Positions 675 to 14,632 of a stretch of 21,318 nucleotides of DNA are shown here, in pieces. Below the pieces are notes generated by a model, which was not told the DNA's origin, ran no database searches, and saw only the letters and a program-made list of their open reading frames with translations. Origin of the DNA: a virus; the IMG/VR virus record IMGVR_UViG_3300013131_002271, positions 1 through 21,318 of that record; one strand, written 5' to 3'. A program made the translations under genes and the position numbers. Positions within the stretch are counted from its first letter, which is position 1; the number at the start of each line of letters is the position of its first letter.

Positions 675-1049
675 ATGTCGACGCATCGGGTTCCTGGGTC
701 GGGGGTCACATTAACGACCAGATTTGGCATTGGTCTCGGCACGACGGGCACGGCATTGGGCTACCCGAGTGCGCCATACCGGGGGATATCCTCTGTCGAG
801 GAGGATAGACCGGAGCCGTCGGCCGTCGTGGCGTCCGACTTCATGGAGAGGTTTGTGGAATACGCCAAGGAGAGGGGGGTTGACGAAAAGACGCTGCTGG
901 CTGCGCCAACCCGTCTGTTCACGCTGTTTCTATGCGTCCGTGGCATCGAACAGGACGGCGAGAAGGACGACGATGTGCGCGCCAAGCTGGATGCGGAGTT
1001 GAAGCTGCTCCGACTGCCGTGTTGTGAAGCGGTTTCACAAATGCTTTGA
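675..1049 (+). CDS. Hypothetical protein, 124 aa
   Basis: I do not recognise this protein. The ATG at 675 has a good AGGAG (663-667) seven bases upstream, which argues that the gene is real and fixes the start. The N-terminal third is Gly/Ser/Thr/Pro-rich and probably disordered. From about residue 50 the sequence is acidic and amphipathic (DFMERFVEYAKERGVDEKTL onward) and predicted helical to the end. No signal peptide, membrane segment or catalytic motif is visible. The last codons contain a palindromic operator-like site, and the stop codon overlaps the -35 box of a strong promoter, so transcription of this gene and of the downstream RNA unit could interfere. It stands alone between two repeat-rich non-coding stretches. 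A small regulator or accessory phage protein is possible, but this is a guess. Confidence 0.6.
   Translation: MSTHRVPGSGVTLTTRFGIGLGTTGTALGYPSAPYRGISSVEEDRPEPSAVVASDFMERFVEYAKERGVDEKTLLAAPTRLFTLFLCVRGIEQDGEKDDDVRAKLDAELKLLRLPCCEAVSQML
1022..1040. promoter_or_regulatory. Palindromic operator candidate
   Basis: TTGTGAAGCGGTTTCACAA is a perfect 7-bp inverted repeat (TTGTGAA / TTCACAA) with a 5-base centre. It ends five bases before the -35 box at 1046, a usual place for an activator or repressor dimer site. It lies within the final codons of the 124-aa gene. No regulator gene is adjacent in the window. Confidence 0.5.
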
Positions 1050-1073
1050 CATTTGTGGGTTGACGTGGATAAT
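1046..1073 (+). promoter_or_regulatory. Strong sigma70-type promoter
   Basis: A perfect TTGACA (1046-1051) and GATAAT (1068-1073, five of six matches to TATAAT) are separated by 16 bp. Transcription would begin near 1080. No gene follows; instead there are two pentamer arrays and an intrinsic terminator, so the predicted product is an RNA of about 295 nt ending near 1374. This is the best promoter match I see in the window. Confidence 0.65.
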
Positions 1074-1118
1074 AGGATAGCGCGCTGGGTGTGGGGGATG
1101 GTTTACGGGTTTTGACCG

Positions 1119-1178
1119 CGCGCCGCCTCGCGCCGCGGCGCTTCGCAACGCAACGCAGCGCAACGCAACGCAACGCAA
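1119..1178. repeat. CGCNN pentamer array A (12 units)
   Basis: Twelve contiguous pentamers fit CGCNN without a break. The first five vary at NN (GC, CT, GC, GG, TT); the last seven are CGCAA except one CGCAG. The array starts two bases after TTTGACC (1111-1117) and is followed directly by CGACGATATT (1179-1188). On the minus strand the array reads as an open frame with a repeated R-C-V-A-L peptide, which I treat as an artefact. Confidence 0.8.
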
Positions 1179-1207
1179 CGACGATATTCTTTTGGATGGT
1201 TTGACCA

Positions 1208-1262
1208 CGCCACGCAACGCCCCGCTACGCCACGCTCTGCCCCGCCGCGCCTCGCAACGCAA
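1208..1262. repeat. CGCNN pentamer array B (11 units)
   Basis: Eleven contiguous pentamers, ten fitting CGCNN and one TGCCC, with NN mostly different from array A. The architecture is the same: TTTGACC (1200-1206), array starting two bases later, then CGACGATATT (1263-1272). The last 20 bases (1253-1272) are identical to 1169-1188 in array A. The frame of the pentamer is kept while the variable bases differ. Confidence 0.8.
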
Positions 1263-1326
1263 CGACGATATTGATTCTGGGATTTTGAGGGACGGCGGCG
1301 AGCCGGTTGATCCGCGCAGCGCGTCC

Positions 1327-1347
1327 ACGGGGGGTTGCACCCCCCGT
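1327..1347. other. GC inverted repeat before the terminator
   Basis: ACGGGGGG (1327-1334) and CCCCCCGT (1340-1347) form a perfect 8-bp stem with loop TTGCA, six bases before the intrinsic terminator hairpin. It could protect the RNA 3' end or form a second, bidirectional part of a tandem terminator. Confidence 0.6.
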
Positions 1348-1352
1348 TAATT

Positions 1353-1374
1353 AGCCCGCTTCGGCGGGTTTTTT
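1353..1374 (+). terminator. Intrinsic terminator
   Basis: CCCGC (1355-1359), tetraloop TTCG, GCGGG (1364-1368), then six T (1369-1374): a compact UUCG-capped hairpin with a U-tract. It separates the non-coding unit on the left from the late gene operon that starts at 1389. Confidence 0.85.
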
Positions 1375-1388
1375 GTTGGGCAAGGTGG

Positions 1389-1652
1389 ATGAGACTGGTC
1401 AAGGTGACGTGGTTGGATCATGCGTCGTTTGCGCTGAACCAGTGGCAGAGCCTTGATGGTTTGCGTGAGTTGCGCCCGCAGTTGGTTGAGAGCGTCGGCT
1501 GGCTGGTTCACGAAACCAGGGATTTTGTGACCTTGGTTTCGACGGTTGGCGAGAACGAGGGGATGACCGGCGAGATTTGCATCGGGCGCGGGATGATACG
1601 GAGGATAGAGGCGATGGGATGCGGGAAGAAGAAGGGCGGCCGGAAAAAGTGA
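1389..1652 (+). CDS. Small conserved phage protein, 87 aa
   Basis: The sequence fits a small phage protein family I recognise by pattern but cannot name functionally: KV-x-W-L-D near the N-terminus, a middle S-V-G-W-L-V-x-E-T-x-D-x-V-T-L segment, and a C-terminal I-x-x-G-M-I-R-R-I motif before a basic tail (KKKGGRKK). Such genes often lie just ahead of packaging genes. I chose the ATG at 1389 because the frame upstream runs into the terminator. AAGGTGG lies directly before the start, so the Shine-Dalgarno is poorly spaced. The 3' end overlaps the terminase small subunit gene by 34 bases. No catalytic motif is seen; the fold is probably a small beta barrel or SH3-like domain, which is an inference. 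Confidence 0.65.
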   Translation: MRLVKVTWLDHASFALNQWQSLDGLRELRPQLVESVGWLVHETRDFVTLVSTVGENEGMTGEICIGRGMIRRIEAMGCGKKKGGRKK

Positions 1653-2128
1653 GGAGGGGCGGTGTCGGGAAGCGGGTGTTTGCGACACCCGCCGACATGC
1701 AGGCGCGGATTGACGATTATTTTGCGAAGTGCGCCGAGACGGAACGCTTCCCGACCGTGACGGGCTTGGTGCTTCATCTTGGCTTCAGGCACCGGCAGGC
1801 GCTTCACAAGTACGAGAATGGCGAAATCGGGATCGAGGATGGTCTCGCCGCCGAGTTTTCCGAGGTTGTCACCGCCGCCAAGATGCGGATCGAGGATGCG
1901 TGGACGCAGCGGCTGGCCGAGAGCAAGCAGGCATTGGGGCCGACGGTGTACATGCGGAACGTCTTCGGCTGGACCGGGACGGACAATGCGGCGCAGGGCA
2001 ACGCGGCCTTGAAGGTCTCGATGGAGATCACCGACCAGGAGGCGGCCCGTCGGTTGGTGTGGATTTTGGAAAAGGCGACGCGGGAACCCAAACAGTTGGA
2101 GGACAAGTCCACGGAAGCCAAGGGTTAA
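1619..2128 (+). CDS. terS: Terminase small subunit (P22 gp3-like)
   Basis: DNA-packaging recognition subunit of about 169 aa. It would bind the phage packaging site as a ring oligomer and bring DNA to the large subunit. Evidence: a basic N-terminus; a helix-turn-helix-like segment at about residues 44-68 (F-P-T-V-x-G-L-x-x-x-L-G-F then RQALxxYE); a helical middle; and the family-typical N-V-F-G-W near 114-118. This layout is that of gp3-type terminase small subunits. I prefer the ATG at 1619, with AGAGG seven bases upstream; an ATG at 1577 in the same frame lies deeper inside the preceding gene. The large subunit is about 5.8 kb downstream instead of adjacent, because a set of sugar-modification genes intervenes. 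Confidence 0.8.
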   Translation: MREEEGRPEKVRRGGVGKRVFATPADMQARIDDYFAKCAETERFPTVTGLVLHLGFRHRQALHKYENGEIGIEDGLAAEFSEVVTAAKMRIEDAWTQRLAESKQALGPTVYMRNVFGWTGTDNAAQGNAALKVSMEITDQEAARRLVWILEKATREPKQLEDKSTEAKG

Positions 2129-2185: not shown

Positions 2186-3385
2186 TTGTGGGGCGAAGAT
2201 GTCGAGCAACGGGTCCGCGCCTTGCTGCCGGCGGACAGCCAAATCGCGGAATTGCCCGAAAAAGTGCAATTTTGCAGTCGGTGCGTGGTTTCCAATCAAC
2301 GGCCGAGGATCGTTTTCGAGGATGGGGTCTGCTCGGCTTGTCGGTACAAAGCGTCGCAGGCCGCCGTCGATTGGAAGACCCGCGACGCGGAATTGTGTGA
2401 ACTTCTCGATTCTTACCGGAGGGATTCGGGATGGGACGTGATCGTACCGACCTCCGGGGGAAAGGATTCGGGGCCGATCGCGCACCGGCTGAAGCACGAA
2501 TACCGGATGCACCCGCTGGCGGTGAAGTGGGCGCCGTTCGGATATACGGACATTGGGTTCCAGAATTTCAATGCCTTCGTCCACAGCGGCTTCGATTGCC
2601 TCGTTGGGTGGCCGAACGGCTTCGTCCTGAGAAAACTGTCGCGGATAGCACTTGAGGTCTTGGGCGACGCATGGCAACCCTTTGCCTATGGGCAACTGAA
2701 TTTCGCCATGCACATGGCGCTCCGCATGGGCATCCCCCTCGTCTTCTTCGGGGAGAACGGGGAAGCCGAGTATGGCGGCGACCCGTCGGCCAACGACAAG
2801 CCATGCTGGGGCTATGACGATTGGGAGCGGGTCTACCTCAAGGGCGCCGGGATCGACCGGCTGTTCGATATTGGGCTTGAGGTCGGGGCCTTCACCCGAG
2901 ACGAGCGCCGGGAAATCTCGGAATTCTACAGGTTGCCGCCACGGGACAAGCTGGGCGGCGTCCAATTCCATTGGTTCGCCTATTACCGGAAATGGCATCC
3001 CCAGGGGAATTATTACTACGCCACGGAGAACACCGGGTTTACGGCGAATACGGAACGGTCGGAGGGCACCTATTCCAAATACGCCAGCCTTGATGACCGC
3101 TTTGACGGCTTTCACTACTACATGGCCTATGTGAAGTTCGGCATCGGTCGCTGCACATCAGACGCGGCCCACGAGATCAGGGACGGGGAGATCACGCGGG
3201 ATGAGGGTGTCGCGCTGGTCAATCGCTTCGATGGCGAATTCCCGAAACGGCATTTCCAGGAATTTTTGTCGTATCTCAATCTGGACAAGGAACATTTCCG
3301 GCAGGTTTGCGACCGGTGGCGGCGTCCCGAGATATGGGACCGCGACGACCGCGATGAATGGGTGCCGCGCCACAAGGTTTCATAG
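2186..3385 (+). CDS. N-acetyl sugar amidotransferase (WbpG/PseA type)
   Basis: Member of the ATP-dependent N-acetyl-sugar amidotransferase family, which converts an acetamido to an acetamidino group on nonulosonic or related sugars in LPS or flagellin glycan pathways, using ammonia from a HisH-like glutaminase. Evidence: two CxxC pairs (C30/C33 and C49/C52), a likely zinc site typical of the family, followed by the PP-loop S-G-G-K-D-S at 90-95. Length about 399 aa is normal. The start is uncertain. The called TTG at 2186 has no good Shine-Dalgarno, while GGAGG at 2151-2155 is well placed for non-standard starts at 2162 (ATT) or 2165 (CTG) in the same open frame, adding seven or eight residues. 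The usual HisH/HisF-like partners are not in the window. Confidence 0.8.
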   Translation: MWGEDVEQRVRALLPADSQIAELPEKVQFCSRCVVSNQRPRIVFEDGVCSACRYKASQAAVDWKTRDAELCELLDSYRRDSGWDVIVPTSGGKDSGPIAHRLKHEYRMHPLAVKWAPFGYTDIGFQNFNAFVHSGFDCLVGWPNGFVLRKLSRIALEVLGDAWQPFAYGQLNFAMHMALRMGIPLVFFGENGEAEYGGDPSANDKPCWGYDDWERVYLKGAGIDRLFDIGLEVGAFTRDERREISEFYRLPPRDKLGGVQFHWFAYYRKWHPQGNYYYATENTGFTANTERSEGTYSKYASLDDRFDGFHYYMAYVKFGIGRCTSDAAHEIRDGEITRDEGVALVNRFDGEFPKRHFQEFLSYLNLDKEHFRQVCDRWRRPEIWDRDDRDEWVPRHKVS

Positions 3386-3394
3386 GAGGGGAAA

Positions 3395-3742
3395 ATGGCT
3401 TCCCGATACGGATTCGATTTCACGCCGATCGTGGGAACGACGGCGCCCAGCTTCAATTCCACGCTCGGTTCCTCGGGGGTTTACGCCCTGGAGGCGACCA
3501 GTACTGGCCGTATCTGGGCCGGAGGGAATAGGGCGGTACGTTTGGCGGGGCTGACCTCGACGCCGTTCTATTTCAGCGTCGGCACGGCCTCGACGACCAC
3601 GACTGCGGCGGTCGGCGACAGCGAACTGGTGCATGGCGGACGTGGTGAGATCGTGCCGGTCGCGGGCAACATATCGCATATCGCGTTCCGATCCTCGACG
3701 GATGTCACGATCAACGTGACGCTGGGGTACGGCGGGAGATGA
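3395..3742 (+). CDS. Small Ser/Thr-rich probable virion protein, 115 aa
   Basis: A short beta-rich protein with many Ser, Thr and Gly residues, including a T-A-S-T-T-T-T run, and a C-terminal half of alternating beta strands (HIAFRSSTDVTINVTLGYGG). Proteins of this look are common in podovirus structural regions and may be head-decoration or fibre-tip components, but I cannot name a family. A strong AGGAGGG (3384-3390) overlaps the stop of the amidotransferase gene. Its own stop overlaps the next start as ATGA (3739-3742), implying coupled translation with the nucleotidyltransferase. No signal peptide or membrane segment. Its placement among glycosylation enzymes makes it a candidate acceptor protein, by inference only. 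Confidence 0.7.
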   Translation: MASRYGFDFTPIVGTTAPSFNSTLGSSGVYALEATSTGRIWAGGNRAVRLAGLTSTPFYFSVGTASTTTTAAVGDSELVHGGRGEIVPVAGNISHIAFRSSTDVTINVTLGYGGR

Positions 3743-4407
3743 CGCCTGTCGTCATCATGGCGGGCGGCAGGGGGGAACGCCTGCACCCGCTGACCGACAA
3801 GACCCCGAAACCCATGCTGCCGGTCGGCGGCAAGCCGATCCTGGAAACGGTGATCGACGGGTTCAAGAACCAGGGGTTCAAGAAATTCTGGCTCTGCGTC
3901 AACTACCGCAAGGAGTGCATCGAGGACTATTTCAAGGACGGCTCCGGGCGGGGTATCAACATCCGCTATACCCATGAACCGGAGGCGCTTGGGACGGCCG
4001 GGGCTCTGGCGCTGTTACCGAAATTCAAGGTGCCGTTCATCGTGCAGAACAGCGATGTCATTGCCAGCGTGTCCTACGCCGCACTGATGGAGCATCACGC
4101 CAGGGCGAATTGCCAAGCCACGGTTTGCCTGAGCCTGTACCAGCATCAAATACCGTATGGTGTTGTGCAGACCGAAGAGAATTTGTTCAAGGGTGTCAGG
4201 GAAAAGCCCATCGAGGACTTCCCGGTGATCGCCGGGATTTACGTTCTGGAACCATCCGTCGTCGATCTTGTGCCGCGTGGGGCAAGATTGGATATGCCGG
4301 ACCTTCTGTTGAAGCTGGACAAGGTATCAGTGTTCGCCATCGAGGGATGGTGGGTGGATGTCGGACGGTTTTCCGACTATCTGAAGGCGAATGGAGGTAT
4401 GGTTTGA
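3739..4407 (+). CDS. Sugar-1-phosphate nucleotidyltransferase (PtmE/RmlA-like)
   Basis: Activates a sugar-1-phosphate with a nucleoside triphosphate, most like the catalytic part of PtmE (glucosamine-1-phosphate guanylyltransferase of legionaminic acid synthesis) or related mannose-1-P guanylyltransferases. Evidence: N-terminal signature M-A-G-G-R-G-E-R-L (7-15) followed by K-P-M-L-P-V-G-G-K-P (24-33); E-P-x-x-L-G-T-A-G-A-L near 80-90; N-S-D-V at 104-107, where N-x-D binds metal; and W-V-D-V-G-R near 205-210. At 222 aa it is a bare catalytic domain without the CBS domains of full PtmE. It overlaps the previous stop by four bases (ATGA) and the next start by four bases (TTGA). Exact sugar and nucleotide specificity cannot be read from the sequence. 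Confidence 0.8.
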   Translation: MTPVVIMAGGRGERLHPLTDKTPKPMLPVGGKPILETVIDGFKNQGFKKFWLCVNYRKECIEDYFKDGSGRGINIRYTHEPEALGTAGALALLPKFKVPFIVQNSDVIASVSYAALMEHHARANCQATVCLSLYQHQIPYGVVQTEENLFKGVREKPIEDFPVIAGIYVLEPSVVDLVPRGARLDMPDLLLKLDKVSVFAIEGWWVDVGRFSDYLKANGGMV

Positions 4408-4970
4408 TCCTCGGGATCATTCCGGCGCGCGGCGGATCGAAGAGAATTCCGCGCAAGAACATCAGGATTCTCGGCGGAAAGCCGATGATAGCGTGGACGA
4501 TTGCGGCGGCGAAGGCATCGATAATCAACCGCTTCGTGGTCTCGACGGAGGACTCGGAGATCGCCGATACCGCCGAGGCGTGGGGCGCCGAGGTCTTCAA
4601 CCGCAATCCGAAGTTCGCCGAGGACGAAGCCTCGATCTACGATGCTGTTTTCGAGGTCATGGACGAGATACCCTCGACGTGGGTTGTCCTCCTGCATCCG
4701 ACCTCGCCGCTGCGGACGGCCGCCGATATCGACGCCTGCATCAACCAATGCCTGATCAATTCGGCGCCGGCCTGCGTGGCGTGCGAATATACCGTTCCGG
4801 TGCCCAACGGGGCGGTGTACGTGGCGTATACGAGTTGGCTGCGGGAACACCGGAACTTCGACGGGCCGCGGACGGTGGTGTACCAGATGCCGTCATGGCG
4901 AAGCATCGATGTCAATGTCCAGGCCGATTTCGACCGGGCCGAACAATTGCTGAAAACACATGAATCCTGA
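4404..4970 (+). CDS. CMP-nonulosonate (acylneuraminate) cytidylyltransferase homologue
   Basis: Family that activates sialic, pseudaminic or legionaminic acid to its CMP form. Evidence: I-I-P-A-R-G-G-S-K-R-I-P-R-K-N at 5-19 (CTP-binding loop), V-V-S-T-E-D at 45-50, P-T-S-P-L-R at 99-104, P-N-G-A-V-Y near 134-139 and S-I-D near 167-169. Start chosen at TTG 4404, with GGAGG (4393-4397) six bases upstream and a TTGA overlap with the preceding stop. A longer in-frame start at 4110 would bury the gene in its neighbour. At 188 aa it is shorter than the usual 220-230 aa. Two normally conserved positions differ: His98 for the usual Gln before PTSPLR, and Asn171 for the second Asp of the I-D-x-D-T metal-binding motif. 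It may be specialised or impaired. Confidence 0.78.
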   Translation: MILGIIPARGGSKRIPRKNIRILGGKPMIAWTIAAAKASIINRFVVSTEDSEIADTAEAWGAEVFNRNPKFAEDEASIYDAVFEVMDEIPSTWVVLLHPTSPLRTAADIDACINQCLINSAPACVACEYTVPVPNGAVYVAYTSWLREHRNFDGPRTVVYQMPSWRSIDVNVQADFDRAEQLLKTHES

Positions 4971-5754
4971 GCTCCGCGCCGCTTGGTATCGACTATACGA
5001 GCCGCGCAGGCTCAAGATCGCGCGGTTCATGCACGAATACGAATATGTGGATGACGAACCGCTTGTCTCGGTGTTGCTGCCGACCCACAACCGAGCCGAT
5101 CTGCTGGTCAACCGGGCATTGGCGAGCGTTTTCATCCAGACCTACGACAACATGGAGATCGTCGTTCTCGCCCATAACTGCACGGATGATACGATTTCGC
5201 GGGTAAAACGGCTGCGGGATCATCGAATCCGGCTCGTCGAGGTCAAAAAGCGCGGGAATTACCCGGATACTGCCGAAAATCGGTGGTTTTGCGGTCCCGT
5301 TGAACCGTTGAACGTCGGTTTGGGGCTTGTGAAAGGGCAATGGATCGCCAGAATCGATGACGATGATGTCTGGACGCAGACGCACGTCGAAAATCTGCTG
5401 GGTTTGGCGCGAAAAGGGGACTTCGAGTTCGTTTCCGGTGCCCACAACGGCCCGCACGGCGTCGTCAGGCCCTATCGTCTCGGGAAAACCGAGGTTGGCG
5501 GAACCCAGACATGGCTTTACCGTTCGTATCTGAGGTTTTTCCGCTACAATCCCGATTGCTGGCGGAAACGATGGAACCGTGTCAACGATACCGATATCCA
5601 AGATCGCATGTATTCCGCCGGGGTCAGGATTGGATACCTGAACAAGGTGGTTTGTGACGTTCTGCCGAGACCGGGTGAGACCGAAATCGGCCTGAAAGCG
5701 TATTTGAGCCCAGGAAATGGGGCATTTGGGACTGTAGGTTCACCAGCAAGTTAA
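4960..5754 (+). CDS. Family 2 glycosyltransferase
   Basis: GT-A fold glycosyltransferase, 264 aa. The core begins after about 33 residues with L-V-S-V-L-L-P-T-H-N-R (35-45), the usual nucleotide-sugar entry strand; V-V-L-A-H-N-C-T-D-D-T near 68-78; and an acidic metal and nucleotide site I-D-D-D-D-V (132-137), an expanded DxD. The C-terminal part has aromatic and basic residues (about 178-215) as in acceptor-binding regions. No membrane segments, so it is probably cytoplasmic and soluble, able to act on phage proteins or on lipid-linked or LPS intermediates. It overlaps the cytidylyltransferase by 11 bases. The donor may be the product of the two preceding enzymes, but GT2 members use many donors. 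Confidence 0.83.
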   Translation: MNPELRAAWYRLYEPRRLKIARFMHEYEYVDDEPLVSVLLPTHNRADLLVNRALASVFIQTYDNMEIVVLAHNCTDDTISRVKRLRDHRIRLVEVKKRGNYPDTAENRWFCGPVEPLNVGLGLVKGQWIARIDDDDVWTQTHVENLLGLARKGDFEFVSGAHNGPHGVVRPYRLGKTEVGGTQTWLYRSYLRFFRYNPDCWRKRWNRVNDTDIQDRMYSAGVRIGYLNKVVCDVLPRPGETEIGLKAYLSPGNGAFGTVGSPAS

Positions 5755-5769
5755 GCAAGGAGCAAAGTC

Positions 5770-6300
5770 ATGGCCTACACAATCCGAAAGTCCGTCGTGG
5801 GCAATCAGTTCGGGCTGAATTCCACGGGCGCCTTGGTCGACAAGAACGGCTACGGCGCGTTGATGAAAAACTCGACGGGCGCCATCCAGAGTTCATCCTC
5901 GGCGCTGTCGTTCGCCGGCACACTGGTGGTCGACGAAGCGTTCAGCCCCAAATTCGAGGTTGCCTCCTCGTCCGGCGCGACGGTTTCCGCCTACGGCATT
6001 ACCATCATCAGTTCGGGAACAGCGGCCGCCCTCAACCTCGTCATGGCGGACCCGTCCACGGTGCCGAGCCTCAAGCATGTCTTCGCCGGGGCGTGCAGCG
6101 CGACCACGGTGCTGCTCAAGACGACCTCGACGGTGACGGTGTTCATGAGCACCCAGGATGTCGGCGCTACTGGGCTTCAGTTCGAGGTTGCCGGTGGAGT
6201 CATGGGCGAGAGTGTCGTTCTTCATGGGATCACGGTCGCCTCGGGATCGCCGCGCTGGGCCGTGCTCTATCGCACGGGAGGGGTGACGCTGGTAACGTGA
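5770..6300 (+). CDS. Ser/Thr/Ala-rich probable virion protein, 176 aa
   Basis: Unrecognised protein with beta-rich, low-charge, Ser/Thr/Ala/Val/Gly-rich sequence. After a start M-A-Y-T-I-R-K it contains short runs such as S-S-S-S and T-T-S-T-V-T-V, with no signal peptide or membrane helix. Such composition is typical of phage decoration, fibre or receptor-binding beta proteins. AAGGAG at 5758-5763 lies seven bases before the ATG, one of the clearer Shine-Dalgarno sites in this cluster, suggesting high expression as expected for a structural part. Its stop overlaps the methyltransferase start (TGATG). It is the second Ser/Thr-rich protein interleaved with the glycan genes and another candidate acceptor; this is inference. 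Confidence 0.7.
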   Translation: MAYTIRKSVVGNQFGLNSTGALVDKNGYGALMKNSTGAIQSSSSALSFAGTLVVDEAFSPKFEVASSSGATVSAYGITIISSGTAAALNLVMADPSTVPSLKHVFAGACSATTVLLKTTSTVTVFMSTQDVGATGLQFEVAGGVMGESVVLHGITVASGSPRWAVLYRTGGVTLVT

Positions 6301-7019
6301 TGGAAGCAGTTGACTGGACGAATGATCCTCGGCCGGACGGCTATGATCCGGCCGAGGAGATTCCCGGCGGCCGGCGTCATAGGCTGCATTTCCCGGCGAA
6401 ACCGGGCAAACATTCATTCGACAGGCTTTCCGACGAGGACAGGGCGAATATCGCCAAATTGGCGAAAGGGCGTAAATCGGTCATCGAGATCGGGACATTC
6501 ATCGGGGGGTCCGCCGAGATCATCCTTGAGAACATGGACCCCGAGGGAAGGCTGGTATGCGTCGACACGTTTCGCGGGACGCCAGCCAACGAGACCAAGG
6601 CCATCCCTCGGGAAATCATGCTTTGCTATGCGCTTCAACGATTGGAGCCGCATGAGCATAGGCTGACCGTGATCGTCGGGAAAAGCCTGGACGCCGCGGC
6701 GTGTTTCAAGGACGGCATCGCCGACATGATCTTTCTGGATGCCGACCACAGATACAGCGCCGTGACGGCGGACATCGGGGCGTGGTTCCCCAAGCTGATG
6801 CCGGGCGGTGTTTTTTGCGGCCATGATTTCTACAAATGGGCTATCAATCGGGAATTGCCGCCTGGGGAACTTGAACTTGACCGGCAATCGGAACCGGAGA
6901 CGGTAATCCATTGGGGCGTGACGATGGGTGTCTACGAGGCATTCGAGAAAAGCACGCTGCACGGTGGAACCAGTTGTTCAATCTGGAGCGCGGAGCAGGC
7001 ATGGCGAAGAAAGCCGTAA
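6300..7019 (+). CDS. Class I SAM methyltransferase (Methyltransf_24-like)
   Basis: About 239 aa. SAM-binding motif I is V-I-E-I-G-T-F-I-G-G-S at 61-71, followed by the acidic strand V-C-V-D-T (86-90), the motif M-I-F-L-D-A-D-H-R-Y (143-152), typical of the Methyltransf_24/CmcI-like group, and L-M-P-G-G-V-F-C-G-H-D-F (166-177). Members of this group often methylate sugars or small molecules in glycan and antibiotic clusters. The start at 6300 follows from the 1-base overlap with the preceding stop (TGATG); upstream extension would only overlap that gene. Given the neighbours, O- or N-methylation of the glycan made by this cluster is the simplest idea, but the substrate is unknown. Confidence 0.82.
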   Translation: MEAVDWTNDPRPDGYDPAEEIPGGRRHRLHFPAKPGKHSFDRLSDEDRANIAKLAKGRKSVIEIGTFIGGSAEIILENMDPEGRLVCVDTFRGTPANETKAIPREIMLCYALQRLEPHEHRLTVIVGKSLDAAACFKDGIADMIFLDADHRYSAVTADIGAWFPKLMPGGVFCGHDFYKWAINRELPPGELELDRQSEPETVIHWGVTMGVYEAFEKSTLHGGTSCSIWSAEQAWRRKP

Positions 7020-7921: not shown

Positions 7922-10600
7922 ATGGATCAGATAGCCGAAATCCTTGCGCGCTTGAAGGGCTTGAGCGCGAAGGACCGGAACGACCTCAAGAAACAGATCG
8001 TCGATGCCACACTGGCTCGGAAGTGGATTGCCAATCCCGGCCCCCAAACCGATGCGGTATTTTGCGCCGCAGATATTCTACTTTACGGCGGCTCTGGGGG
8101 CGCTGGGAAGGGGTTCAAGTCGGCCGAGCCGGTTCTTACGCCGTTCGGATGGCGCAAGATAGGGGATATCAAGATCGGTGATCGGTTGTGTGCGACCGAT
8201 GGCACGACGACGCGAGTGATCGGCGTTTATCGCCGTGGCGTCCAGCCGATGTATCGGCTCTCGTTTGCTGACCGAACCAGCATTGAATGCGATGGCGATC
8301 ATATTTGGCTGGCGTGGAATACGCAGCGCAGCCGTAAAATCGGCAATGCCAGAACCAACGGATGCCAAGCGGCCCAGAAATGGACGACGCGGCAAATCCA
8401 TGAACACTACGGGGCCGGAAAAGAGCGATTGGCAATACCGCTGATTTCCAAGCCGGTGTGCTTCAATGTGGCCGGGAATCTCGTTGGACCCGGGGAGTAC
8501 AGGAAAAGGAATTTCAGCCCCTATGCGCTCGGCGTTCTCTTGGGGGATGGGTATCTTGGCGAGAGGGGAGTGAAATTCTCGTCGGCGGACAGTTACATCA
8601 TTGACCGGGTGGAAAAGGAACTTGGTGTCGAGTTGTCGCGTTACCAGACCAGAAGCGTGGCGTTCGATGTTCGAATCCCCAATCATGCCGCCATACCGTT
8701 TCTGACGGAAGTCGGCCTGATCGGGACGCATAGCGACACGAAGTTCATCCCACGCACATACCTTCTGGCGTCCGAGGATGAGCGGTGGTCCCTTTTGCAG
8801 GGGTTGCTTGATACCGATGGCACGGCTGACAAACGGGGCGGGATTTACTTCTGTTCGACCTCCGAACGATTATCCAACGATGTTGCCCACTTGGCTCGCT
8901 CTCTTGGCGCGATTTGCACGGTTTCATCCAAACTGCCGACGTTCACATACAATGGGCAAAAACGCACCGGGAAACGTTCGTTCAATATCAGGATAAAATT
9001 CGAGAACGGCGAACGGGCGTTTGGTCTGCCCAGGAAGAAGGAACGGGTTGCGGCCGTGGTTCCGCAATTCATGGGGAAGTCCATTGTTTCTATTGAAAAG
9101 ATCGAGGATGCCGAAACGATCTGCATCGCGGTTTCCCATCCGAACAATCTTTATATTGTTCACGATTTCATCGTTACCCATAACACGGACCTGTTGGCTG
9201 GATTGGCTCTTACCGAACACAAAAGATCGGCATTGTTTCGCAGGCAGTACACCGACTTGGGCGCGCTTATCGAGCGCGTTCTGACACTCAATGGGACCAG
9301 GAAGGGGTTCAACGGACAACCGCCGGCGAGCCTGAAGACACCGGATGGCCGGTTGATCGAATTCGGCGCCGCCGGTAGCATGGAACAGGTCCAGACGTGG
9401 CAGGGCCAGCCGCACGATTTTCGCGGGATGGACGAAGCCTGCCAGATGATCGAGGCTGTGGTCCGCTTTCTATTGGGCTGGGTTCGCAACGCCGCCGACA
9501 TGCTGGGCGCCGATACGGGGCAACGGTGCCGGGCGGTACTGGCGACCAACCCGCCGCTTTCGGCTGAGGGCGAATGGGTCATCGGCATGTTCCGGCCGTG
9601 GCTTGACTTGACCCATCAGAATCCGGCCCGCTTCGGGGAATTGCGATGGTTCGTCGTCGACCCTGATGGCAGGGACATGGAAGTCGACGGCCCGGATGAC
9701 GTAAAAGAATGGCCGACGCGGGAAGGGGTGCCGAGCGTTCACCGGCCGCAGTCCAGGACGTTCATCCCCGGCAAGCTGTCGGATAACCCGTTTCTGGTTA
9801 ATACGGGTTATCAAGCGACATTGGATTCGTTCCCGGAGCCGATGCGTTCCGCGATCCGGGACGGCAATTTCATGATCGCCCGCGAGGATTCGGAATGGCA
9901 GGTCATTCCGTCGCGGTGGATCATTGATGCGCAGAACCGATGGCAGTCCGTGCCGCCACATGTGCCGATGTGTTCCATCGGGGTCGATGTGGCGAGGGGC
10001 GGATCGAACCAGACCGTTCTTTCTCCACGGTTCGATACGTGGTTCGCGGAATTGATCGTCAAGGGCGGCAAGGAGACGCCGACCGGCTCCGACGTGGCGG
10101 CGCTGGTGTTCAAGAACAGAAAGGATCAGGCCGAAGTCGTCATCGACATGGGGGGTGGTTACGGCGGCTCCCCATATGATCACCTGAAGGCCAACGGAAT
10201 CCCGGTGACTGGGTTCAACGGCGCCGATGCATCGAACGCCAGGACGAAGGACCGGAAGCTCGGGTTCTACAACAAGCGGGCGGAAATCTATTGGCGGTTC
10301 CGGGAAGCCCTGGACCCCGACCAGCCCGGCGGGTCGCCGATTATGTTGCCGCCGGATTCCGGGCTGTTGGGGGATTTGGCGGCACCGCATTACGAAGTGA
10401 CGCCCAGAGGTATTTTGGTCGAGGACAAGAAGAAGATCATCAAGCGACTGGGCCGATCCACGGACAAGGGCGATGCGGTGGTCATGGCCTGGAGTTGCGG
10501 CCCGTCGTACCTCAGCCACGGCTCGGATTGGAAAGAACAGATCAAGAGGAAGTTCTTTCCGAAAGTCAATCGTGGGCATGATGCCCAGCGACGGCATTGA
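7922..10600 (+). CDS. terL: Terminase large subunit precursor with intein
   Basis: ATP-driven DNA-packaging motor and headful or site nuclease. The 892-aa precursor contains a 358-residue intein; the spliced protein would be 534 aa, normal for the family. ATPase: Walker A G-x-x-x-x-G-K/T is formed only after splicing, from G-A-G-K (60-63) and T422; Walker B-type F-R-G-M-D-E with D504/E505; coupling motif A-T-N-P-P at 541-545. RuvC/RNase H-like nuclease: D689 (I-G-V-D-V-A), D742 (V-V-I-D-M-G-G-G) and D851 (G-D-A-V-V-M-A). The ATG abuts the TAG of the preceding gene in the same frame and has no clear Shine-Dalgarno, so termination-reinitiation is likely. All catalytic residues are present, so packaging activity should depend on splicing. 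Confidence 0.9.
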   Translation: MDQIAEILARLKGLSAKDRNDLKKQIVDATLARKWIANPGPQTDAVFCAADILLYGGSGGAGKGFKSAEPVLTPFGWRKIGDIKIGDRLCATDGTTTRVIGVYRRGVQPMYRLSFADRTSIECDGDHIWLAWNTQRSRKIGNARTNGCQAAQKWTTRQIHEHYGAGKERLAIPLISKPVCFNVAGNLVGPGEYRKRNFSPYALGVLLGDGYLGERGVKFSSADSYIIDRVEKELGVELSRYQTRSVAFDVRIPNHAAIPFLTEVGLIGTHSDTKFIPRTYLLASEDERWSLLQGLLDTDGTADKRGGIYFCSTSERLSNDVAHLARSLGAICTVSSKLPTFTYNGQKRTGKRSFNIRIKFENGERAFGLPRKKERVAAVVPQFMGKSIVSIEKIEDAETICIAVSHPNNLYIVHDFIVTHNTDLLAGLALTEHKRSALFRRQYTDLGALIERVLTLNGTRKGFNGQPPASLKTPDGRLIEFGAAGSMEQVQTWQGQPHDFRGMDEACQMIEAVVRFLLGWVRNAADMLGADTGQRCRAVLATNPPLSAEGEWVIGMFRPWLDLTHQNPARFGELRWFVVDPDGRDMEVDGPDDVKEWPTREGVPSVHRPQSRTFIPGKLSDNPFLVNTGYQATLDSFPEPMRSAIRDGNFMIAREDSEWQVIPSRWIIDAQNRWQSVPPHVPMCSIGVDVARGGSNQTVLSPRFDTWFAELIVKGGKETPTGSDVAALVFKNRKDQAEVVIDMGGGYGGSPYDHLKANGIPVTGFNGADASNARTKDRKLGFYNKRAEIYWRFREALDPDQPGGSPIMLPPDSGLLGDLAAPHYEVTPRGILVEDKKKIIKRLGRSTDKGDAVVMAWSCGPSYLSHGSDWKEQIKRKFFPKVNRGHDAQRRH
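8111..9184 (+). mobile_element. Class 3 intein with LAGLIDADG endonuclease, in terL Walker A
   Basis: In-frame 358-residue insertion between K63 and T422 of the precursor, splitting Walker A as GK/T. It has no Cys or Ser at its first position (it begins G-F-K-S-A-E-P-V). It ends T-H-N followed by Thr. The class 3 Trp-Cys-Thr triplet is in place: W66 two residues after the block B His64 (D-H-I-W), C338 at block F position 4 (E-T-I-C-I-A-V), and T356 before H357-N358. Class 3 inteins start splicing from the block F Cys instead of residue 1. The central domain has both endonuclease motifs, L-G-V-L-L-G-D-G (140-147) and L-Q-G-L-L-D-T-D-G (229-237), with their acidic residues, so homing activity is probably intact. 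The +1 residue Thr is a suitable second nucleophile. Confidence 0.9.
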
Positions 10601-12817: not shown

Positions 12818-13754
12818 AGAAACAACGACGACCGAAACCCCGAAAGGCGCGGAAGTCGCTGCGGAGACCACCAAAACGACCACGGAGACGACGAAACCGA
12901 CCGGCGGGACGCTGGCCGAATCCGTCGATGATGTTCCGGCGAAGGCGCCGCCGACGTGGCCGGACAATTGGCGCGAGTTGGGCGCGTCCGGCGATGAGAA
13001 GGTGCAGAAACTTCTCAACCGGTATTCGTCGCCGCAGGGCGTCATCAAGGCGCTTATTGCTGCGCAGAAGAAGATTTCCTCCGGGGAGATCCCGAAGCCC
13101 AAGCCGGAGGGCGAAGACCCCGAGGCCATGAAGGCATGGCGGGCCGAAAACAACATCCCCGAGAAGCCGGATGATTACTTGTCCGGTATTCCCGATGGTG
13201 TCGTGATCGGCGAAGAGGACAAGGACATTTCCGCCGACTTTCTCAAGGCCATGCACGCGAAGGACGTTCCGGCGGCCATCGTTCACGATGCCCTGTCGTG
13301 GTACATCGGAATCAAGGAAAAGCAGGCCGAACAGCAGAATGAGCGCGACAAGAAGTTCCGGGCCGGGTCCGAGGATGTCCTTCGGGAGGAATGGGGCGAC
13401 GAGTATCGCGGCAATCTGAACGGGATCGTTTCCGTGATAAACCAGTTCGGCGACGACAAGTTGCGGACCCGGATGTTCGCGGCGCGGATGGCGGACGGGA
13501 CGCCCTTGGGGGATGATCCTGATTTCCTGCGGTTCATGGCGAGTGTTTCACGTGAAATCAACCCGCGCGGTACGGTGGTCCCGACCGGCGGCCAGACCGT
13601 GACGCAGGCGATCGAGGCGGAAATCGAGCAGCTTGAGAAGGAGATGGCGGACACCAAGGGCCGGACCTATGACTACTACAAGAATCCGAGGAAGCAGGAG
13701 CGGTATCGGGAGTTGCTTGACCTGCGGGATCGGCACAAGGCGCGGGCAGTTTGA
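12810..13754 (+). CDS. Capsid scaffolding protein (T7 gp9-like)
   Basis: 314-aa highly charged protein with the composition of phage scaffolds: a Thr/Glu-rich acidic N-terminus (1-45), a conserved W-P-D-N-W-R-E-L segment near 50-57, a K-P-D-D-Y near 122-126, long charged helices, and a C-terminal coiled-coil and basic end (about 265-314) expected to bind the capsid shell. It would direct prohead assembly and leave before or during packaging. AAGGAG (12799-12804) lies five bases before the ATG. Its stop overlaps the radical SAM gene start. A near-consensus parS sequence lies in codons around 246-250 and is listed separately. Confidence 0.82.
   Translation: MAEETTTTETPKGAEVAAETTKTTTETTKPTGGTLAESVDDVPAKAPPTWPDNWRELGASGDEKVQKLLNRYSSPQGVIKALIAAQKKISSGEIPKPKPEGEDPEAMKAWRAENNIPEKPDDYLSGIPDGVVIGEEDKDISADFLKAMHAKDVPAAIVHDALSWYIGIKEKQAEQQNERDKKFRAGSEDVLREEWGDEYRGNLNGIVSVINQFGDDKLRTRMFAARMADGTPLGDDPDFLRFMASVSREINPRGTVVPTGGQTVTQAIEAEIEQLEKEMADTKGRTYDYYKNPRKQERYRELLDLRDRHKARAV
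13544..13559. promoter_or_regulatory. parS-like ParB binding site
   Basis: TGTTTCACGTGAAATC matches the conserved bacterial parS TGTTTCACGTGAAACA at 14 of 16 positions, with a perfect 12-bp palindromic core TTTCACGTGAAA (13546-13557). The core has the CACGTG centre of parS and not the CCCGGG centre of Noc sites. It is inside the scaffold gene and encodes S-V-S-R-E-I. The T-C-A serine codon it uses looks uncommon among the mostly TCG/TCC serine codons of neighbouring genes. It may bind host ParB, or be a chance match. Confidence 0.5.
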
Positions 13755-14632
13755 TGAGGCCGATTTACGACAACACCGTGATCCAGATCGACATTTCCGA
13801 TGGGGCCTGTCATCTGCGGTGCGCCAACTGCACCCGGATGATCGGCCACCATCGGAACCCGGCCTTTATGCCGATGGATGCGATAATCACGGCCATCGAA
13901 TCGCTGGACGGCTTCACAGGACAGATCGGCATGATGGGCGGGGAGCCCGCGCTGCACCCGCAGTTTCTTGAGGTTCTTACCGTCTGGCGGGAAATGGTGC
14001 CGCGCCGCCGTCGGGCCTTATGGACCTCGGGTTGGAAATGGCGGCAATACAAGGCCGACATCCTAGCCACATTCGACAAGGATTTGATCCATTACAACGA
14101 CCATACCCAAACCACCGGGAAACACCAGCCTCTCTTGGTGGCGATCGACGAAGTGGTTGATGACGAGGAATTGCGGCGCATTCTCATCGACAACTGTCCG
14201 TTCCAGCTTCATTGGAGCGCGGCGATCAACACAAACGGGGCCTTTTTCTGTGAAATTGCGGCGGCCAATGCCAGGGTGTTTGGATTGAAGGGGTACGATG
14301 TCGTGCCCGGCTGGTGGAGGAAAATCCCGGCCGAATTTCGTGATCAGGTTGAAACATTCTGCAATAAATGCTCCGGGGCGTTGCCTTTGCCGAAATTCTC
14401 GGACGGGCGCGGCGGTCGGGACGAGGCGACAATCGACGTGATTTCGCCCGGCAATCTTGAACGGCTCAAGGCGATGGGGTCGCCGAAAGTCGCCAAGGGC
14501 AACTACAGGATTTGGGACAAGAAGCTGTCCCGCACCGAGATCGAGGGGATGCAAGAGGGCTGGCAACCGAGGGAGTTTCGGGATTTCGAGGCCCATTCCC
14601 CGGAAGACGTTTGCAAGGCTATTGCAAGTTAA
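13754..14632 (+). CDS. Radical SAM enzyme
   Basis: 292-aa radical S-adenosylmethionine protein. The cluster motif C-H-L-R-C-A-N-C (C19, C23, C26) is the canonical CX3CX2C binding a 4Fe-4S cluster, and G-M-M-G-G-E-P (59-65) is the SAM-binding GGE motif. Later cysteines C148, C166, C203 and C206 could hold an auxiliary SPASM/Twitch-like cluster. Substrate unknown: the family includes peptide, nucleoside and sugar modifiers. The gene sits inside the morphogenesis operon between scaffold and capsid. The start is ATG 13754, overlapping the scaffold stop as TGATG; a TTG one codon earlier (13751) is also possible. No strong Shine-Dalgarno, so expression is probably coupled and lower than that of the capsid gene. 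Confidence 0.85.
   Translation: MRPIYDNTVIQIDISDGACHLRCANCTRMIGHHRNPAFMPMDAIITAIESLDGFTGQIGMMGGEPALHPQFLEVLTVWREMVPRRRRALWTSGWKWRQYKADILATFDKDLIHYNDHTQTTGKHQPLLVAIDEVVDDEELRRILIDNCPFQLHWSAAINTNGAFFCEIAAANARVFGLKGYDVVPGWWRKIPAEFRDQVETFCNKCSGALPLPKFSDGRGGRDEATIDVISPGNLERLKAMGSPKVAKGNYRIWDKKLSRTEIEGMQEGWQPREFRDFEAHSPEDVCKAIAS

Follow-up and report, generated by a model that had tools for sequence, protein, structure and literature searches.

Paired CGC/NN pentamer arrays upstream of a phage terminase gene as probable guide RNAs of a VIPR-type system

The virus record analyzed here (the window, meaning the whole stretch of 21,318 bases) carries terminase, portal, capsid, and tail genes, and is probably a fragment of a phage genome. 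Two units sharing one design are found between a 124-amino-acid ORF and the genes preceding the terminase small subunit (terS), each comprised of the word GGATGGTTT, the word TTTGACC, a phased CGCNN array, and the word CGACGATATT. The features of this region are as follows:

1046..1073, plus strand: promoter-like site of sigma-70 type, TTGACA-16-GATAAT (11/12 consensus bases; a consensus match only)
1096..1117, plus strand: 5' flank of unit 1, GGATGGTTT ... TTTGACC (both words also precede array 2)
1114..1178, plus strand: candidate guide array 1, GAC-CG at 1114, then 12 perfect CGCNN units at 1119-1178 (vrRNA-like by family comparison)
1179..1188, plus strand: start of the 3' tail of unit 1, CGACGATATT (the word also occurs in a viral contig, L057, after an array located upstream of vipr)
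1194..1206, plus strand: 5' flank of unit 2, GGATGGTTTGACC
1203..1262, plus strand: candidate guide array 2, GAC-CA at 1203, then 11 units at 1208-1262
1263..1272, plus strand: start of the 3' tail of unit 2, CGACGATATT
1353..1374, plus strand: intrinsic terminator-like element (7-bp stem, 4-nt loop, T run)
1619..2128, plus strand: terminase small subunit, given as context outside the element (PF16677, E 1.3e-11; phrog_606)

The word GGATGGTTT occurs on the plus strand at 1096-1104 and 1194-1202, and TTTGACC at 1111-1117 and 1200-1206; the GAC-NN unit before each array is in phase with the pentamers that follow. The NN series of array 1 is GC CT GC GG TT AA AA AG AA AA AA AA, and that of array 2 is CA AA CC TA CA TC CC CG CT AA AA, with TGC replacing CGC in the unit at 1238-1242. 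An earlier sequence-only reading had described two like units of 12 and 11 pentamers with a constant CGC and a constant period of five but variable NN, and both points stand. The longest phased run that any trinucleotide attains within 1081-1374 has 12 copies, whereas 2000 dinucleotide-preserving shuffles never exceeded 5; phased CGC in array 2 reaches 10/12, and 5000 shuffles gave at most 6. The promoter that it placed before the arrays is present, though one such site was found where 0.6 would be expected by chance in the 2.2 kb scanned, which alone is weak evidence; the terminator that it placed at the end of the segment was recovered as well, and a further, G-rich hairpin lies just upstream of it.

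The segment contains only two ATGs (1098 and 1196), opening frames of 5 and 2 codons, as previously read. Long ORFs run over the arrays, and a coding role on either strand was considered and rejected, these frames being a by-product of the GC-rich period. Predicted RNA folding is no more structured than that of shuffled sequences (z +1.47), in agreement with the earlier description of an unstructured RNA, and the AT-rich 3' tail (CGACGATATT...), whose leading word is common to both units and L057, has no evident hairpin and no structure beyond shuffles. A search of 900-1500 against Rfam families returned nothing at gathering score, and CRISPR array criteria applied to the window find only the 5-nt units, with no repeat-spacer structure.

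Elsewhere in the window, two imperfect copies of the array end and tail (CGCCCCGCGAGGACGATATTCAACCGCTGG, CCCCGCGCAACCGATATTCAACCGCTGG) occur on the minus strand at 285-376 and are possibly decayed guide units of opposite direction. Non-coding DNA at 401-469 holds about six degenerate 11-bp tandem repeats (AACGGGAACGA). The 892-amino-acid ORF at 7922-10600 has a LAGLIDADG_3 domain and resembles a large terminase split by an intein. The regions at 2186-6962 and 13751-14632 hold ORFs judged by eye to be sugar/nucleotide-transferase-, glycosyltransferase-, and methyltransferase-like, together with a radical-SAM-like gene.

The sequence-only reading knew of no family with this design, a statement that is now out of date, as the guide RNAs (vrRNAs) of VIPR share it (PMC13142463). 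VIPR is a recently described CRISPR-like phage system whose guide RNAs alternate GGY/NN, or a related consensus; the NN dinucleotides pair with DNA and one base is skipped per unit, such that two bases of every five are read (PMC13142463). In phage SUSP1, GGY/NN arrays are reported on both sides of vipr-vap1 (PMC13142463; KT454805), and on re-reading this locus we find them around vipr and vap1, arranged as in the CGC/NN family described below. The earlier impression that NN matters less than the spacing or the CGC repeat is not supported; in the related VIPR system, NN specifies the target.

Viral contigs were scanned for ten CGC triplets in phase, and 101 stretches were returned. Diverse arrays (8-31 perfect CGCNN units, mostly 8-16, with hypervariable NN) are present in 89 of the 100 viral stretches retrieved with this pattern; individual arrays have up to 14 different NN and all 16 dinucleotides occur over the set, so most are not simple repeats. 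The arrays are often found after a stop codon and before a start codon, joined in tandem by AT-rich linkers; they end most commonly in CGCAACGCAACG, an ending shared with the window. It had been proposed earlier that related phages could be searched for such arrays with the window's tail: this brought out a large CGCNN family and the tail word in L057, but the exact pattern CGCNN x4-CGACGATATT has no match in the viral contigs. No TerS relatives were found in the viral contigs. Three tandem arrays with near-identical linkers of ~55 nt (CGATCCTGACCGAGAGATACCGATG...) occur in L100 (13025-13360) and L130 (1-350), in stretches without vipr, and the linkers of tandem arrays in L123 (608-1110) and L125 (12450-12690) are hairpin-like or repeated (GCCGTCAGCCTCAGCGGCTGGC; AGCCCGAAAGGGTCATCCTT), possibly representing another tail class. 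On the reverse strand of L057 (3150-3750), upstream of vipr, degenerate arrays have CAC, CTC, or TGC in place of CGC, which suggests a looser scaffold, C[G/A/T]C.

A protein of ~195 amino acids recurs beside the arrays. By profile search, its gene (vipr) is found in 65 of the 89 diverse-array stretches, compared with 0 of 35 viral stretches chosen arbitrarily. The vipr loci hold 181 arrays, every one of them on the same strand as the vipr coding sequence and 175 within 1 kb of it (median distance 151 bp). This supports the earlier reading of the non-coding segment as probably an RNA. A profile of 36 linked-protein sequences has a sole match in the PDB, 36pp, 'SUSP1 Vipr protein' (E 3.8e-9), and the AlphaFold2 model (pLDDT 93.9) of the linked protein from L015, which is related to the window phage by its portal, has type VII Cas7 and Csm3 as its best Foldseek matches. 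Judged by this profile match and predicted structure, the linked protein is a RAMP (Cas7/Csm3-like fold) homologous to SUSP1 Vipr. The second neighbor is a homolog of SUSP1 Vap1 (E 2e-7, obtained with a small database in the initial profile round, prior to its inclusion), with homologs in over 40 loci of the CGC/NN family. The 21-kb window record contains no vipr, and neither of the two genes beside the window arrays is a Vap1 homolog.

The reading rule of the CGC type is evident in a prophage-like locus of Paracoccus litorisediminis, which holds a vap1-like gene, two arrays, vipr, and a third array, and outside of which the genome has no other CGC/NN arrays. When one base is skipped per unit, array 2 has two exact 18/18 matches in 125 Paracoccus genomes, compared with ~0.014 expected (our own estimate, under uniform base composition). 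Both are in-frame in one gene type (...GDPLIERVTLVKPVRVGFTTLL...) and differ only at skipped third codon positions; this gene appears large-terminase-like, a phage terminase named by reading the protein rather than by database search. With skips of 0 and 2, the same array has no matches in the 125 genomes even when one mismatch is allowed, and with a skip of 3 it matches only itself. Array 3, read with a skip of 1, gives 18/20 matches in 22 genomes, against 0 for the control; the matched DNA translates as IYTRKSSEEG, which we take to be a serine-recombinase motif, and the two mismatches mostly both fall in a CTC-scaffold unit. The array 3 result is weaker alone because one conserved gene family gives nearly all of its matches. 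The 1-nt-skip code holds for the CGC type, mainly on the evidence of one array of another phage. A broader test of the skip rule, with 187 arrays against 1.8 Mb of loci, gave no clear targets at any skip, this being too little sequence.

For the window arrays themselves, viral contigs and 385 alphaproteobacterial genomes yielded no convincing target, only chance-level matches. The 18-base core of array 2 has 0 matches in viral contigs; one match to array 1, in a low-GC contig, leaves the outer units unmatched and was taken as chance. The 16-base cores have 24 and 11 matches, and these extend no better than chance would predict. One lead, itself not above chance, is a wobble-phase match of the first eight units of array 1 to a phage gene in three contigs (L280, L281, and L284) from metagenomes 3300037722, 3300037714, and 3300037751. 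Metagenome 3300037722 is also the source of L002, the closest portal relative. Half of array 1 consists of CGCAA units, which are of low information content.

Two lineages of portal relatives of the window phage carry vipr. In L015 (60% in the best segment), vipr and vap1 occur with CGC/NN arrays of 31 and 17 units at a different site, before a radical-SAM-like gene rather than at terS; judged by eye, the window shares this radical-SAM-like gene. In the other lineage, L005/L006, vipr is frameshifted. It lies there in two frames (G004:C1:344-824, G005:C1:3290-3770), with no array of at least four CGCNN units in the stretches examined; this is possibly a dying VIPR. The vipr genes of L015 and L005/L006, together with the tail word in L057, place the window arrays in the family by sequence design and imply that the window phage lineage carries VIPR.

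We consider it highly likely, by comparison with these relatives, that 1080-1374 encodes guide RNAs of a CGC/NN-type VIPR, similar to vrRNAs. The segment would give rise to two guide RNAs of ~85-95 nt each (array plus tail), and these would be coated in 5-nt steps by Vipr, a small, single-domain, Cas7-related RAMP that would hold each CGC. Vipr itself would be encoded beyond the 21-kb record or provided in trans. The displayed NN dinucleotides would then pair with double-stranded DNA as N1N2-x-N3N4-x..., with one target base skipped per unit (target form, CANCANAANCCNTANCANTCNCCNCGNCT). In coding targets, the skipped base would tend to fall at codon wobble positions, in which case synonymous changes would give the target no escape. 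Binding is predicted to repress the genes of a competitor, either phage or satellite, and the window pair very probably serves as a programmable means of attack on, or defense against, rival phages. The sponge or protein-binding DNA array proposed previously may apply to this orphan pair, but is not the best-supported role for this family.

Given that there is no vipr in the 21-kb record and no convincing target, the window guides are possibly orphan, decoy, or borrowed. An unlikely, but not negligible, alternative is a self-transcribed guide cassette without an effector, which by analogy could be an RNA anti-VIPR decoy that jams or loads a rival's Vipr, or a trans-acting guide that borrows Vipr from a co-infecting or resident element. 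The arrays have neither vipr nor vap1 beside them, come with their own promoter-like site and terminator, and adjoin terS rather than a vipr locus as in L015, and satellites carrying their own vrRNAs are reported (PMC13142463). However, the record is a fragment without replication genes, such that vipr may be missing from the assembly only, and the NN series of array 2 is diverse and guide-like.

It is less probable still that slippage has produced CGCAA-type pentamers as in phase-variable loci, with no guide role. CGCAA runs do occur in array 1, and most matches to the pattern in GTDB, which were set aside, are near-pure CGCAA repeats (Pasteurellaceae, Capnocytophaga, Neisseria, and others); yet the NN bases vary between most units of array 2 and over the first half of array 1, the flanks are common to both units, diverse-NN arrays track vipr, and there is no reading frame to switch. 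Least probable is a packaging site (pac/cos-like) or other protein-binding DNA array, for which a position just upstream of terS and a 5-bp phase suited to a DNA-binding multimer would be apt, whereas the arrays of relatives lie at vipr/vap1 rather than terS (in L015, before the radical-SAM-like gene) and are always strand-matched to vipr.

Read as VIPR-type guides, the window arrays share with the vrRNAs of SUSP1 and of the Pseudomonas fulva prophage clade tandem 5-nt units with a fixed trinucleotide, a hypervariable NN, and a 3' tail, arranged as tandem arrays in phage intergenic DNA; their 12 and 11 units fall within the ~9-16 units of the published systems. The CGC family further resembles VIPR in that its arrays flank vipr and vap1 and that a 1-nt-skip match to phage genes is found. 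The differences are that the window motif is CGC instead of the GGY of the published definition, that the tail is AT-rich without an evident hairpin, and that the pair is solitary, bracketed by its own promoter-like site and terminator in a record that lacks vipr. Because the motif is CGC and GGY is the published definition, the window arrays are filed as a VIPR variant. The noncontiguous RNA-guided code of VIPR is proposed to be older than CRISPR (PMC13142463).

The RAMP fold of the linked protein and the periodic interruption of guide-target pairing recall class 1 CRISPR crRNA on its Cas7/Csm3 backbone, but the window has no CRISPR repeats or spacers, contiguous guide, cas operon, or adaptation genes. 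The phase-variation repeats of Neisseria, Pasteurellaceae, and Capnocytophaga share the pentamer period and the CGCAA unit, and differ in their near-identical units, with little NN diversity and no vipr linkage seen. RNA anti-CRISPRs are solitary phage repeat units; they resemble the window pair as orphan guide-like RNA of a phage without an effector, but mimic CRISPR repeats rather than a pentamer code. The present data indicate that the VIPR code also works with a CGC scaffold. Guides of the CGC/NN type occur commonly among environmental phage contigs, they need not be located in a vipr locus, and one of them exactly matches a putative phage terminase gene with the skipped bases at wobble positions. 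The exchange of motif (CGC vs. GGY), orphan guides, and rival targets are directly testable.
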